DNA of 38,336 nucleotides. Source: a virus. This document shows positions 6,420 through 38,336 of the stretch, piece by piece. Location: the IMG/VR virus record IMGVR_UViG_3300023223_000252, positions 1-38,336 of that record. One strand, 5' to 3'. The stretch's first letter is position 1. Each line of letters starts with the position of its first letter. The translations under genes and the position numbers were made by a program. The notes beneath the pieces were generated by a model, which searched no databases, had not been told where the DNA came from, and saw nothing but the letters and a program-made list of their open reading frames with translations.

Positions 6420-7307
6420 TTACTTACCTTCTTTCGTTGTTGTTTCGTTATCCATAAATTCAAATTCTAATTGGCAATTGGTACACATCATGCCGCCTTT
6501 ACCCTTGGATTTCTTCTTGGGCATTTCGTTCCAGTCCCTTTTATGTCCTGCTGCTTTAACCAACACTTCAAGTTCTCTTATTTCTGCTGCTGCTTCAGGG
6601 TAAGCCTCTTCTAGCTCTATCATTTCTCCAGGTGCAGCATAAGCACCGCATAGGCATTCACCAGATTTACAAAGCTTATCAACGACAGGATTTCTTTTAA
6701 GATCATTAATGCGGATATACTCTTGGCATTCTTTAGCGGTCCAATTGTGAATTATGCTTGTCCAAATTCTAGCACCTTCCTGAAAAACCAATTCTACATT
6801 ACCCATACGGCGAACTGATTCATCAGAACGAACACCGGAGATAAGCATAATTTTATCTAAGTGCTTAGTCTTTAGTTCTCGGATCAGCATTCTAAGTGGT
6901 CTATCTTTAAGTTTAGAAAACATCATGAAATGTTGACCAGGACCAGGAAAGCCATGCTTAATCACAATATCTTTATAGATCATCGGGTCAGGGGTTCCAT
7001 CTGCTTTGGTATTCTCTGCTGCTTTCTTTTCGTATAGTTTCCAGTTATGTTTATTACAGGTTTCGTATACAAATTCTCTTGTTTGTCTTACGCCTATTCC
7101 TGTATTCATGTGAGCCATTGCGGTAAATTTAGGATGAAGGCTGGCAACGTGACAGGCAGTTAATGAATCATGACCACCTGAGAACATGCCAATTACTGAA
7201 GAACATTTATACTTATCCAAGACAGTATCGATTAAATCATGGCATTCTTTTATTTTAGCAGTCCAGTCAATATCTAGTTCATGGCTTTGTAATCTAAAAT
7301 CGTTCAT
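6420..7307 (-). CDS. PP-loop ATP pyrophosphatase, PAPS reductase/DndC-like (295 aa)
   Basis: The N-terminal half is a PAPS-reductase-family domain: PP-loop SGGHDS (residues 43-48) binds the ATP phosphates, and GVRSDES-x-RR (158-167) matches the family's second conserved site. The C-terminal region has clustered cysteines, LCKSGECLCG (Cys213, 218, 220) and CTNC (275-278), which could hold an iron-sulphur cluster as in DndC-like proteins. Phage members are generally annotated as PAPS reductases, but without assimilation genes beside it a role in thiolating DNA or RNA is as likely. ATG 7307 overlaps the helicase stop (ATGA). The Lys-rich tail (KKKSKGKGG) is unusual. Confidence 0.85.
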   Translation of the reverse strand: MNDFRLQSHELDIDWTAKIKECHDLIDTVLDKYKCSSVIGMFSGGHDSLTACHVASLHPKFTAMAHMNTGIGVRQTREFVYETCNKHNWKLYEKKAAENTKADGTPDPMIYKDIVIKHGFPGPGQHFMMFSKLKDRPLRMLIRELKTKHLDKIMLISGVRSDESVRRMGNVELVFQEGARIWTSIIHNWTAKECQEYIRINDLKRNPVVDKLCKSGECLCGAYAAPGEMIELEEAYPEAAAEIRELEVLVKAAGHKRDWNEMPKKKSKGKGGMMCTNCQLEFEFMDNETTTKEGK

Positions 7308-8671
7308 ATTGCTTTCTCCTGCTGCATATTTGAATACCTGCCATTAAAAAACTTTGCTCTACCCTGAATAGTCAAAGTTGACATTTCAATATCAAGATAC
7401 GTCAAGCCTTTTGGATTGTTCCTGTTTTTCGTAAGATTAACTATTAATTTTCCCTGTAAATCTTTAGTGGTTAAAGTCTCATATTCTTCGGTTCCATCGC
7501 GTCTAGCCATGTAATTCTTCTTTCTCGCGTCTTGATCAGGATCTATTCTATCCGCTAAAACGATTATAGATGCCTCCTGTTCAATAGTAGAGCACTCGGC
7601 TAGGTGATGAGTCGCTGGACGTTCACTTGCGGCCTCTCTGTTCAATTGAGCCAATGCAACAATTGATATATCATTGTCGATCGCACACTGTTTTAACGTC
7701 AAAGCCATGTGATGAACTTGATCACGTCTTGAGGTTTTTGGGTAAGTTGGCTTGATTCTCTGCAAGTAATCAATAAAAACTACTTTCACATTTTTCTGAA
7801 TAACTAATCGTTTAATCCAGCGACAAATATCTTCAACAGTATCACCCTTACGATTTTCACCAGTAGACATAAACAGCGTTTCTTTCATATCTGCCAAATC
7901 TTTAACACCTTTTTGCATATCGGCCATTTCGCCATGAGTGAGATTTTGGCTCTGAAGTTTCTTTAATGCAACACCGGAGAGAGTAGACAAACAACGCCAA
8001 GAGATCATCCAATCAGACATTTCAGCACACCAGTAAGCAGTATTGACCTTCTTCTGAGCACCAATTATGCAATTATGAGCTAAGATTGTTTTGCCTACAC
8101 CTGGCCGAGCAGCGATTATATTCAAATCTCCGCCAATCATCGGTGCAATTTCATCAAGTATATCTATTCCCCAAGGGTTAAAGACTTGTTCTTTGTTTCT
8201 AATCTGCATGAACTTATCCATCCCTGCACCAATAAAATCTTTCATGGTCCTGATCTTGGTTTCACAGAATCTTGAGTCTGCTGCAATGTCTATCGATTGA
8301 GCTAAAGTCTCGTTCAGGTCATTGATTGATATATTCTGATCATCAATCATGTGGTCCAGAGTCATTATCTTAATCTTCAATCTTCTTCTGATTGATAAAG
8401 TAATTAAGTCTTTGATTGCTTGTCGCCAGTTATTCCCCGATATGTTTGAGAATAGAAAACCGTTATTCATCAGGAAACTTTTCTTGAAAGCATTATCATC
8501 AATCATATTTTCTTCAATTGCTTTTTTTAAGTCATTGAATAGTGATCCGTAATTGTCAGTAAAATCTTCTACTGTGATCTGTGCAAGTATTTCTTCTCTG
8601 CATACATGCCAAGTGAATAGAGAGTAAACAACTTGTGCTTCAGGATTATATTGGGTTTGGGAAGAAGTCAT
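7304..8671 (-). CDS. Replicative DNA helicase, DnaB family (455 aa)
   Basis: This hexameric helicase unwinds the fork. It has an N-terminal helical domain (about 1-110) and a RecA-like ATPase domain from about 165: Walker A ARPGVGKT (189-196), Walker B VVFIDYLQ (297-304) and the DnaB motif QLNREAASERP...STIEQEA (343-367). I place the start at ATG 8671, after AAGGA and inside the end of the replication-protein gene, because the N-terminus YNPEAQVVYSLF then aligns with DnaB proteins; the GTG at 8725 would add 18 unsupported residues. No primase domain is fused, so priming must come from the host. Confidence 0.92.
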   Translation of the reverse strand: MTSSQTQYNPEAQVVYSLFTWHVCREEILAQITVEDFTDNYGSLFNDLKKAIEENMIDDNAFKKSFLMNNGFLFSNISGNNWRQAIKDLITLSIRRRLKIKIMTLDHMIDDQNISINDLNETLAQSIDIAADSRFCETKIRTMKDFIGAGMDKFMQIRNKEQVFNPWGIDILDEIAPMIGGDLNIIAARPGVGKTILAHNCIIGAQKKVNTAYWCAEMSDWMISWRCLSTLSGVALKKLQSQNLTHGEMADMQKGVKDLADMKETLFMSTGENRKGDTVEDICRWIKRLVIQKNVKVVFIDYLQRIKPTYPKTSRRDQVHHMALTLKQCAIDNDISIVALAQLNREAASERPATHHLAECSTIEQEASIIVLADRIDPDQDARKKNYMARRDGTEEYETLTTKDLQGKLIVNLTKNRNNPKGLTYLDIEMSTLTIQGRAKFFNGRYSNMQQEKAI

Positions 8672-9398
8672 TGCTTGGAGTTCCTTGCTGTTGATTGTTG
8701 CTTGTTTGTCTTGCTTTGAAGTCACTTAGTTTTATCCACTTGTCTCTAAAGGCACTCATTGACCAAACTTGTGGACAATATTTTTCTAAGAGATTATCAT
8801 CAAGGAATTTTAGCATTGAGTAAAGTTCATCGATTTTAATTTCATCCTTTTCGACTAACAATCTACAAGAGTCATACCATGCCTTAGTTTTCCAGTTCAC
8901 CGATTTAGTTATCTTTTTATTGTCACTTAACATCTGGTAATAATTCTTACAAAAATCCAAATACACACTATTGGCGCTTTTAAGCCAATTTTCTTGGACT
9001 TGGTTAATGGTAGGTTCTATACTTATAGGTTTAGGTGACACTCTGTCAGTACTCTGAGGTGACACTCTGTCACTACTACATGACTCTCTGTCAGTACGAC
9101 ACTCTGTCAGTACTGACTCTCTGTCACTACTGACTCTCTGTCCTTGTGAGAGGCTAATTTTGTATTTATTGCGAGATCCTACACTCTTTTTCTTTTTTAG
9201 GATGTCTTTTGCAATTAATGACTCAATATGTCTTATTACTGTACGTTCTGACATTTCGCATTTAAGAGCAATTCCCATTTGTGATGGCCAACATTCGTTC
9301 TTATCGTTTGCGTAATCACAAAGAGCAAGTAAAACAAGCTTTGTCATTGGTGAGCCTGTTTTTATGCTTAATGCTTCTGCTGTAAGCTTATAAGACAT
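8646..9398 (-). CDS. Replication initiation/helicase-loading protein with winged helix (250 aa)
   Basis: Residues about 10-80 form a winged helix-turn-helix (MTKLVLLALCDYAND, then WPSQMGIALKCEMSERTVIR) as in phage replication protein O-like initiators. A Ser/Arg/Asp-rich linker (about 86-123, repeated DRES/DRVS) is encoded by DNA repeats that look like initiator-binding iterons. The C-terminal helical domain (140-230, ending SAFRDKWIKLSDF) resembles helicase loaders. The gene directly precedes the DnaB-type helicase, with a 26-bp overlap. ATG 9398 shares a base with the preceding stop (TAATG), so the longer upstream start is rejected. The likely role is to bind the origin inside its own gene and recruit helicase. 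Confidence 0.85.
   Translation of the reverse strand: MSYKLTAEALSIKTGSPMTKLVLLALCDYANDKNECWPSQMGIALKCEMSERTVIRHIESLIAKDILKKKKSVGSRNKYKISLSQGQRVSSDRESVLTECRTDRESCSSDRVSPQSTDRVSPKPISIEPTINQVQENWLKSANSVYLDFCKNYYQMLSDNKKITKSVNWKTKAWYDSCRLLVEKDEIKIDELYSMLKFLDDNLLEKYCPQVWSMSAFRDKWIKLSDFKARQTSNNQQQGTPSNDFFPNPI
9035..9148. repeat. Six iteron-like repeats; probable replication origin
   Basis: Six copies of a roughly 17-bp unit, GAC(A/T)CTCTGTCA(G/C)TACT on the plus strand, begin at 9037, 9061, 9082, 9098, 9115 and 9132; the last is degenerate at its 3' end. The last three are exactly tandem (16-17 bp steps). They lie in the linker-coding part of the replication-protein gene, as the lambda origin lies in gene O, and are followed at 9150-9220 by AT-rich sequence that could open first. 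This placement supports an origin. Confidence 0.7.
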
Positions 9399-11734: not shown

Positions 11735-11813
11735 AATATTCTCTCAGTTTGTTGTTGTTAAAAAACTCTCAATACTTAAAAATAGCCCCTGTTTAACCTT
11801 ATGCAAGTGCTAA

Positions 11814-11843
11814 TGTGAAGATTTGTGAAGATTTGTGAAGATT
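11814..11843. repeat. Three tandem 10-bp repeats, TGTGAAGATT
   Basis: The copies at 11814-11823, 11824-11833 and 11834-11843 are exact. The period of about one helical turn puts the three sites on the same face of DNA, as expected for cooperative regulator binding. They sit upstream of the plus-strand -10 and downstream of the minus-strand -10, so one protein could activate one direction and block the other. Confidence 0.85.
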
Positions 11844-11862
11844 ATTATCTAAATAGACTTGT

Positions 11863-11870
11863 ATTATAAT
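11863..11870. promoter_or_regulatory. Palindromic -10 element for divergent promoters
   Basis: ATTATAAT reads TATAAT on both strands (plus 11865-11870, minus 11863-11868). No good -35 box stands at 16-18 bp on either side, so expression may depend on an activator bound at the adjacent TGTGAAGATT repeats. Transcription to the left would feed the early genes. Confidence 0.45.
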
Positions 11871-11876
11871 TTTAAG

Positions 11877-11985
11877 GAATAATATTCAGGTAGTTGAGCA
11901 GCTTATACGCCTCCCCCGATAAGCCGATCAGCCAGAAGCCTCCTTAGTGAAAAAGGCCACTAACCTCAATTAGTGGCCTTTCTTT
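11877..11985 (+). ncRNA. Candidate plus-strand small RNA or attenuated leader (about 109 nt)
   Basis: It would start from the plus-strand TATAAT at 11865-11870 and end at the intrinsic terminator 11952-11985. It contains hairpin GCTTAT/ATAAGC (11901-11906 and 11919-11924) whose loop is CCTCCCCC, complementary to purine-rich Shine-Dalgarno sequences. No open frame of note lies within it. The start point and the existence of the RNA are inferred from motifs alone. Confidence 0.4.
11952..11985. terminator. Strong bidirectional intrinsic terminator
   Basis: AAAGGCCACTAA (11952-11963) pairs perfectly over 12 bp with TTAGTGGCCTTT (11970-11981), loop CCTCAA. Both sides have T-rich tracts (TTTCTTTT to the right on the plus strand, TTTTTC on the minus strand). 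It should end the long late minus-strand transcript after the XhlA-like gene and also stop or attenuate the plus-strand transcript. Confidence 0.85.
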
Positions 11986-12015
11986 TAACAACAACAAAAC
12001 AAAAGGTAAGTTATT

Positions 12016-12105
12016 ATGATCTCTATTATATTCACAGTATTAGAAATATTTTTCGTCGTCGGAACCCTTGGACTATGGACAGCAGGAATGTTCAACCTTA
12101 TCTAG
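12016..12105 (+). CDS. Plus-strand 29-residue membrane peptide
   Basis: This is the only credible plus-strand gene. The 29-residue peptide starts MISIIFTVLEIFFVVGTLGL and is one hydrophobic span with a single acidic residue (Glu10). ATG 12016 follows a good ribosome site (AAAAGGTAAG, about 9 nt spacing) and a leader TTTTAACAACAACAAA identical to that of the minus-strand early operon. Its last 8 bp overlap the 3' end of the XhlA-like gene. Because the bidirectional terminator lies just upstream, it would be expressed only by read-through. It could be an early membrane effector or holin-type regulator; function unknown. Confidence 0.5.
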   Translation: MISIIFTVLEIFFVVGTLGLWTAGMFNLI

Positions 12106-32564: not shown

Positions 32565-33050
32565 TCAAGCTAATAATTTTCGTTCAGCCTCAAGTCGTGC
32601 TTGATAAGCTTCTTCCTGAGTATCGAATGAACCAATGTGTTTAACCTTTTGATTGATCTTTATTTGAGCTATCCATTTATTATTGGCCTTTTTCCAGCTA
32701 ACGCCTTTATACTTTGAAGTCATTCCTTCACGTTTAGCCTTATTGAAGCAGTTCTCTGACCTTGTCACACTGCGAAGATTCTCTATTCGATTATTCTGCT
32801 TGTCTCTGTCTATGTGATCCAACTCAGGGGGAAGTTCGCCATAAATCATAAACCAGTGAAGTCTATGTGCTAGAATCCTAACCCTTGATCCACTTATGCC
32901 AATAGTTATCCTTCGATAGCCTTTATGAACTGTTCCTGCAAGATCACCTTCTTTGATTGTAGTATTAGGACGAGGGCAATTCCAGTATGGTTTTCCATCG
33001 ACGAAGTTTATTAATTTGGAGAGTGCTTGGTAGTATTTGAGATTTTTCAT
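32565..33050 (-). CDS. HNH homing endonuclease with AP2 domain (161 aa)
   Basis: This is a free-standing homing endonuclease that spreads by cutting DNA lacking it. The HNH core is AHRLHWFMIYGELPPELDHI (about 61-80) plus DRDKQNNRIENLR, and the C-terminal AP2-like DNA-binding domain spans about 113-157 (GVSWKKANNKWIAQI; IGSFDTQEEAYQARLEAER). Length and domain order are typical of HNH-AP2 genes in phages. It interrupts the scaffold-capsid pair and has its own promoter (33112-33139). The cleavage target is probably the junction in phages lacking the insertion. Confidence 0.9.
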   Translation of the reverse strand: MKNLKYYQALSKLINFVDGKPYWNCPRPNTTIKEGDLAGTVHKGYRRITIGISGSRVRILAHRLHWFMIYGELPPELDHIDRDKQNNRIENLRSVTRSENCFNKAKREGMTSKYKGVSWKKANNKWIAQIKINQKVKHIGSFDTQEEAYQARLEAERKLLA

Positions 33051-37711: not shown

Positions 37712-38336
37712 CGTCTTTGCCTTTGTCTTACTCTGCTGATTACTTCAGGTCTACCCGAACTACGACCTCTATTCTGAAAACTCTCATTACCTACTTTATT
37801 CATCATCACCCAATACCTTGCTGCATCAATTAAATGATTGTATTTATCTACAGGCTCTTTACGTTCAGTATCTTCGCCATCTTTCCAAGTCTGGATCTTC
37901 CATTTATAATGCTCAAACTCTAGTTGTAAGTTGGGTGAATCCCTGTGTACATAAATCTTGAACCTTTTCATTTGCGTAATTCCATCAAGGATAGAACCTG
38001 GACCCTTCTTCACGCTTGCTATGTTATAGCCTAAATTATTGAGACTTGCAATATTTTCTGATGCAGCACAATCAGCCACAATCATAACATCTTTAGGCAT
38101 ATTCATTTCTTCAAACTTGCCTTGAATCGATGGCAGGGATGGCATAGTTATATTTTTAGTCGTATAAACTTGAGTATCATACAAATGTTCACGCAGGTAT
38201 AAACCCCTATTGTGAATACAGCACTCAACCAATGCAGTCGGATCAACACTAAACCCAAAGTCTAAACCAAATCCCCAACGCATACAAGATTGAGGATGCT
38301 CAGGCCAGAAGTCTGTAGTGTCCCATAGTTTGAAGA
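37708..38336 (-). CDS. terL: Terminase large subunit, C-terminal nuclease part (continues at 1-835)
   Basis: This is the RNase H-like nuclease half of TerL, which cuts the concatemer. Its acidic residues in family order are Asp256 in LDFGFSVDP, Asp319 in VADCAASE and Asp401 in LIDAARYWVM (numbered from ATG 835). The frame enters from the window edge, in phase with 1-835 over the 144-bp repeat. An ATG at 38283 is an internal methionine, not the start. The stop overlaps the following zinc-ribbon start. Confidence 0.95.
   Translation of the reverse strand, partial: FKLWDTTDFWPEHPQSCMRWGFGLDFGFSVDPTALVECCIHNRGLYLREHLYDTQVYTTKNITMPSLPSIQGKFEEMNMPKDVMIVADCAASENIASLNNLGYNIASVKKGPGSILDGITQMKRFKIYVHRDSPNLQLEFEHYKWKIQTWKDGEDTERKEPVDKYNHLIDAARYWVMMNKVGNESFQNRGRSSGRPEVISRVRQRQRR
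38193..38336. repeat. 144-bp terminal direct repeat, copy 2
   Basis: Exact copy of 1-144, inside terL. Remove one copy to obtain the circular sequence. Confidence 0.9.

Follow-up and report, generated by a model that had tools for sequence, protein, structure and literature searches.

The 38,336-nucleotide viral genome record analysed here (the window) carries six near-palindromic repeats (iterons) within its replication initiator gene, at positions 9036-9143. Very likely, this array forms the part of an intragenic replication origin to which the initiator binds, a joint reading in which the winged helix of the encoded protein reads the iterons, AT-rich DNA nearby is opened and the helicase encoded next is recruited. 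An intragenic origin in an initiator gene is a known kind of arrangement, and with this array the window joins the HTH_36/PHROG 391 initiators. The coordinates of the relevant features are listed in Table 1. A 144-bp direct terminal repeat (positions 1-144 and 38193-38336) indicates that the record represents a complete, circularly assembled genome, which was opened inside the large terminase gene. With megablast, the initial 25 kb of the window gave no match to named phages, and nothing was found in Rfam and tRNA scans.

Table 1 Features of the window that bear on the proposed origin. Positions refer to the window; domain roles, the unwinding element and the linker disorder are predictions.
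Feature	Position	Strand	Evidence or remark
Iteron 1, TGACACTCTGTCA	9036-9048	+	
Iteron 2, TGACACTCTGTCA	9060-9072	+	
Iteron 3, TGACTCTCTGTCA	9081-9093	+	
Iteron 4, CGACACTCTGTCA	9097-9109	+	1 mismatch
Iteron 5, TGACTCTCTGTCA	9114-9126	+	
Iteron 6, TGACTCTCTGTCC	9131-9143	+	1 mismatch
Replication initiator (P0001), 250 amino acids, O-like, HTH_36 winged helix	8646-9398	-	Pfam and PHROG
N-terminal winged-helix DNA-binding domain, residues 1-86	9141-9398	-	AlphaFold2 model, PDB matches
Recognition helix, residues 51-63 (ERTVIRHI...), with Arg52 and Arg56	9210-9248	-	Model, covariation
Linker with iterons, residues 87-130, predicted disordered	9009-9140	-	AlphaFold2 pLDDT
C-terminal helical domain, residues 132-236, putative role only	8691-9005	-	Model, weak profiles
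DnaB-family replicative helicase, directly next gene	7304-8725 (alternative ATG start 8671)	-	Pfam, PHROG, NCBIfam
AT-rich, least stable 60 bp near the array; weak candidate unwinding element	8903-8962		Nearest-neighbour energy
AT-rich intergenic region	11735-12097		Holds the 60 bp with the lowest stability in the genome (11827), less stable than the array flank

The iterons are 13-bp near-palindromes of the form TGAC[A/T]CTCTGTCA, and each is an imperfect palindrome with TGACA-gag-TGTCA (TGAC-n5-GTCA) as the best form. Their start-to-start spacing along the array is 24, 21, 16, 17 and 17 bp. An initial annotation of the sequence had reported six near-copies in the initiator gene, though not their palindromic character; all six were located, and its spacing of 16-17 bp for four copies applies to the last four, preceded by the two wider gaps. 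With up to two mismatches allowed, the six array copies were the sole matches to the pattern TGACWCTCTGTCA in the 38,336 bases, compared to a mean of 1.9 scattered matches in the shuffled-sequence control. The copies are read in codon frames 1, 0, 2, 0, 0 and 0, and hence in all three frames of the initiator gene, where they encode the peptides GQRVS, DRES, LTECR, DRES, DRVS and DRVS, respectively. Exact GACAGAGWGTC cores occur six times in the gene, while 2000 shuffles of synonymous codons produced a mean of 0.3 and a maximum of 3. The mixed frames and differing peptides indicate that the repetition belongs to the DNA and not to the peptide. The annotation had also stated that the repeats force a DRES/DRVS peptide, which does not hold across three frames, whereas its view that the DNA dictates the protein sequence is strengthened by them.

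The initiator matches HTH_36 (PF13730, E = 7.3e-16, 58.2 bits with a cutoff of 25), and among the phage protein families it scores best against PHROG 391, ‘replication initiation O-like’ (E = 8.4e-24). A sequence search of solved structures with the initiator gave no match. The AlphaFold2 model of the N-terminal domain has pLDDT values mostly above 90, is confident over residues 1-80 and comprises helices at residues 3-11, 17-29, 40-47 and 51-63 as well as wing strands at 67-70 and 78-81. Helix 51-63 was assigned as the recognition helix because it is placed just before the wing. Structural matches of this domain in the PDB are generic winged helices, such as CAP (3ryp_A; Z 9.4, rmsd 1.4) and the plasmid initiator RepA (4pql_A, 4pt7_B; Z 9.0), the latter tied with unrelated winged helices. 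CAP recognises the half-site TGTGA, and its Arg185 contacts guanine. Alignment with the CAP helix SRETVGRIL would presumably place Arg56 of the initiator at this position, which we take as a lead only.

In the linker, pLDDT is below 50 at residues 87-108 and ranges from 47 to 58 per block of ten up to residue 130. The iteron-bearing stretch thus probably encodes a disordered segment, in which DNA sites could be tolerated in any reading frame with the protein unharmed. The array falls in this linker, between the winged helix and the C-terminal domain, as previously described. Profile matches of the C-terminal domain are weak (PHROG 2357, E = 1.6e-3; DnaD-like helicase loader, E = 0.12). The neighbouring gene, already annotated as a DnaB-type helicase, matches PF03796 (E = 1.1e-37) and PHROG 19 (E = 1.2e-54), and NCBIfam agrees. 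The replication operon also contains a gene with a PAPS-reductase domain (6420-7307; Pfam, E = 2e-9).

In the mechanism that we propose, the winged-helix domain would use its recognition helix to bind the six near-palindromic iterons, and the covariation described below suggests that Arg56, together with Arg52, reads GTGAC-type half-sites. As in lambda and Stx phages, the bound array may nucleate a nucleoprotein complex (PMC7466680). By analogy with lambda, it would then presumably open the nearby AT-rich stretch. The C-terminal domain may recruit the phage's own DnaB-type helicase, a step suggested by lambda and by the weak profile matches. Lambda O acts with P and DnaB in this step, whereas in the window a DnaB-family helicase gene directly follows the initiator gene, with no P-type loader.

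In the ori-lambda of lambda and Stx phages, four or six iterons lie within the central part of gene O (PMC7466680). The window shares with these phages a position of up to six iterons mid-gene, between the DNA-binding and C-terminal parts, and a helicase-related gene that adjoins the initiator gene. It differs from lambda in its iteron sequence, in the tight spacing of the last four copies and in a weak AT tract, and the initiator has no match to Phage_rep_O (PF04492) in Pfam up to an E-value of 1. In its way of working the array would resemble ori-lambda, while by profile its initiator falls outside the lambda O family. In the initiators of RepA_N plasmids and PLE satellites (pSK41, pTZ2162, PLE RepA), the DNA-binding domain covaries with the origin (PMC7145576, PMC8263062). 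Such covariation, an N-terminal winged helix and semi-palindromic iterons are likewise found here. In contrast, the window initiator has no RepA_N match in Pfam up to an E-value of 1, its iterons do not have the poly-A centre of RepA_N and PLE iterons, and the PLE origin is intergenic.

The candidate unwinding element near the array is 78% AT and belongs to the top 0.3% of the genome's 60-bp segments for instability. Across 104 distinct loci of relatives, the AT content of the 60 bp that follow the array exceeds that of the locus by 8.5% on average; the corresponding signal in the window is weak, with only +3% in the adjacent 60 bp and +15% at 80-120 bp. Cumulative GC skew, which had been suggested as a check, showed no extremum at 9.1 kb (detrended extrema lie at 10.2 and 24.7 kb), but the test is uninformative because all main genes share one strand. 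Alternatively, the iterons might be bound by the initiator chiefly for autoregulation or copy control, by slowing transcription through the gene, while replication would start at another place such as the AT-rich intergenic region. Besides the genome's least stable 60-bp stretch, this region holds three tandem copies of the 10-bp repeat TGTGAAGATT (11814-11843) and a two-way terminator-like hairpin with T runs (approximately 11948-11990), and we infer the status of the array as replication start from the analogy with lambda. However, iterons are absent from the intergenic region, which heads the early gene block behind the terminator-like hairpin, a position expected of a promoter region, and probably is the early promoter region. 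Furthermore, the sites of the relatives lie throughout in mid-gene and not at the promoter, and the same arrangement is an origin in lambda and Stx phages (PMC7466680). We consider a mainly regulatory role unlikely and favour the intragenic origin.

When 2.9 million viral contigs were scanned on DNA only for two GACAGAGWGTC copies within 28 bp, 26 loci were found, 24 of which are in ORFs with the same type of winged helix. The pair is located on the initiator coding strand in 22 loci, on the opposite strand in two and outside such genes in two. The copies are often in mixed frames with a spacing of mostly 21-23 or 39 bp, and some of the encoded initiators are only about 20-30% identical to that of the window. 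The reversed pattern, a control that gauges chance yet is not initiator-free, gave four matches, three of which represent one initiator gene with different repeats of its own. In bacterial genome contigs, six of 45 pattern matches were in such initiator genes and most others were other repeats.

A single-sequence protein search of the viral contigs detected no relatives, while an alignment-based search yielded 80 loci with 70 distinct genes, including that of the window. Conserved proteins lacking repeats had been named in the initial annotation as the finding that would speak against an origin; in 66 of these 70 genes the repeats exceed all 40 synonymous shuffles, and the more distant relatives L185, L186 and L189 have no repeats according to shuffle-type repeat detection. 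Repeats detected de novo are nearly always in the linker (nucleotides 250-390 of the gene), and their sequence varies by group (GTGACAGAGAGTCAC, GTGCAGGAGCTGCAC, GTGAAAAATCTGCAC, CTATGCCGCCAAAAAGCATAG). The window gene has the features of the group, namely an HTH_36 N terminus, linker repeats beyond codon-level chance and the repeat class predicted by residues 52 and 56. O-like initiators of the HTH_36/PHROG 391 type occur in Salmonella, Shigella, Vibrio and Aeromonas phages (SfV, S107, mEp010, Vibrio 1.016.O and others). They have the same winged-helix domain, linker repeats and mixed reading frames as the window, and several (Vibrio 1.016.O, BUCT708) also have the helicase gene next; they differ in their repeat class, which goes with residues 52 and 56, in their usual spacing of 21-24 bp and in other C-terminal domains.

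Alignment of the recognition helix across the relatives (SERTVIRHI in the window) revealed that Arg52/Arg56 occurs with TGAC-n5-GTCA (25/25), Arg52 combined with Asn, Thr or Ser56 with GTGCA (23/23) and Ser or Thr52 with TATGCC (11/11). Since the Arg/Arg group had partly been chosen by its DNA, we retested the rule on genes found by protein only. Two or more GAC-n5-GTC copies were present in 11 of 14 previously unused Arg/Arg initiators, and GTGAC-type half-sites of some kind in all 14. The exceptions were L171, in which the half-sites are direct repeats, Vibrio phage D77, which has a single exact GAC-n5-GTC copy besides two near ones, and Bifidobacterium phage PMBT6, whose palindromes have the form GTGAC-n6-GTCAC. 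Among genes with other residues, two GAC-n5-GTC copies were seen solely in a Lys52/Arg56 gene (L028 = L167) that had already been found by its DNA. When only clusters without any member found by the DNA pattern were scored for at least two GAC-n5-GTC copies, the Arg/Arg clusters were positive in 9/12 cases versus 0/35 for others at 90% identity (p = 1.6e-7), 5/7 versus 0/14 at 70% (p = 0.001) and 2/3 versus 0/12 at 60% (p = 0.03).

A blind half-site search for GTGAC-n5-GTCAC pairs returned at least 114 new loci. Among the matches listed, 44 are in ORFs detected as the initiator type, with Arg/Arg in 42, and the first copy in these listed initiators starts a median of 26 residues past the matched helix domain. 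A contrast search for GTGCA-n4-TGCAC pairs gave 16 matches in such initiator ORFs, none of them Arg/Arg; because most of what it recovered belongs to lineages outside the SfV group, these matches provide a contrast but do not put the Asn56 rule to the test. Counted by clusters at 60% identity, Arg/Arg accounted for 31/33 in the GTGAC search, among the matches listed, versus 0/7 in the GTGCA search.

The covariation could also reflect shared ancestry only, with one Arg/Arg clade that inherited one repeat and with no influence of residues 52 and 56 on the site. The sequences are indeed related, and the p-values above weaken with coarser clustering. Nevertheless, the Arg/Arg set has a common site at a median N-terminal identity of 34%, and in the closest cross-class pairs, whose N-terminal domains are 87% identical outside residues 52 and 56, the class switches with the change from Arg56 to Asn. 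Moreover, at 40% identity the blind search still assigned Arg/Arg to 12/13 clusters, among the matches listed, versus 0/6 for the other site. Ancestry as the sole cause hence appears quite improbable. That the repeat sequence tracks recognition-helix residues encoded by the same gene is direct comparative evidence for the earlier claim that the protein binds here, and it supports the view that the initiator reads the repeats of its own gene. The proposal of a lambda-O-like intragenic origin is thereby supported with respect to binding, while origin function would follow from the analogy. An explanation at the protein level, in which a DRES/VTESH linker was selected as a peptide or grew by slippage without a role of the DNA, was rejected as extremely unlikely: the linker peptides VTESH and GDRES are alike in several relatives, but the copies are in different frames in the window and in many relatives (29 of the 44 initiators listed from the GTGAC search), synonymous shuffling fails to recreate the repetition, and the repeat class follows the recognition helix.

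Beyond the window, we lean towards the view that residues 52 and 56 set the iteron half-site across the whole phage initiator superfamily, which would make the origins of uncultivated phages predictable from sequence. The proposed code would assign GTGAC to Arg/Arg, GTGCA to Arg with Asn, Thr, Ser or Ile, TATGCC to Ser or Thr52 and, probably, CCCCCGCA to Arg with Ala, Gly or Gln. The open-access literature searched contained no report of a GACAGAGWGTC-type iteron or of a 52/56 rule, although the review by Weigel and Seitz (2006) may mention intragenic repeats; the two-residue rule appears to be new to this literature. Origins within initiator genes were already known, while those of most sequenced phages have not been located, and the specificity of initiators for iterons has so far been studied case by case. 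Since reader and site are part of one gene, every genome provides a matched pair of the two. The covariation offers a testable rule for which initiators use which origins, with relevance for replicon compatibility and satellite parasitism, and a means of locating origins in metagenomic phages.

Several further observations were made during these searches. The GTGAC half-site matches listed also include the more distant initiator families L277, L274 and L251. Initiators with Arg52 and Gly, Ala or Gln56 from Aeromonas, Sphingopyxis and Pseudomonas phages (L198, L202, L204, L205, L206) have CCCCCGCA-type repeats in common, some of them 17 bp apart as in the window. Four initiators with Ser or Ala52 and Arg56 (L179, L180, L181, L183) contain linker repeats of the sequence AACTGTTGCAGAG, GGTATGTCAGAGA or similar, possibly further specificity classes. 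Via the reversed control pattern, we detected an Ala52/Arg56 initiator with the iteron CCTGTCTCACAGGGAGACAG (L035 6036-6680, L036, L037). Of the at least 114 half-site loci, 24 belong to a head-assembly (scaffold-like) gene family with GTGACGTTACGTCAC and no relation to initiators; here, the paired palindromes GTGACGTTACGTCAC and GTGACGTTGCGTCAC are approximately 33 bp apart and conserved in 24 contigs (for example L283 1723-1770, L209, L222, L240 and about 20 more). In the window itself, an HNH-endonuclease-like ORF, recognised by eye, is located at 32565-33050 between the capsid and scaffold-like genes.
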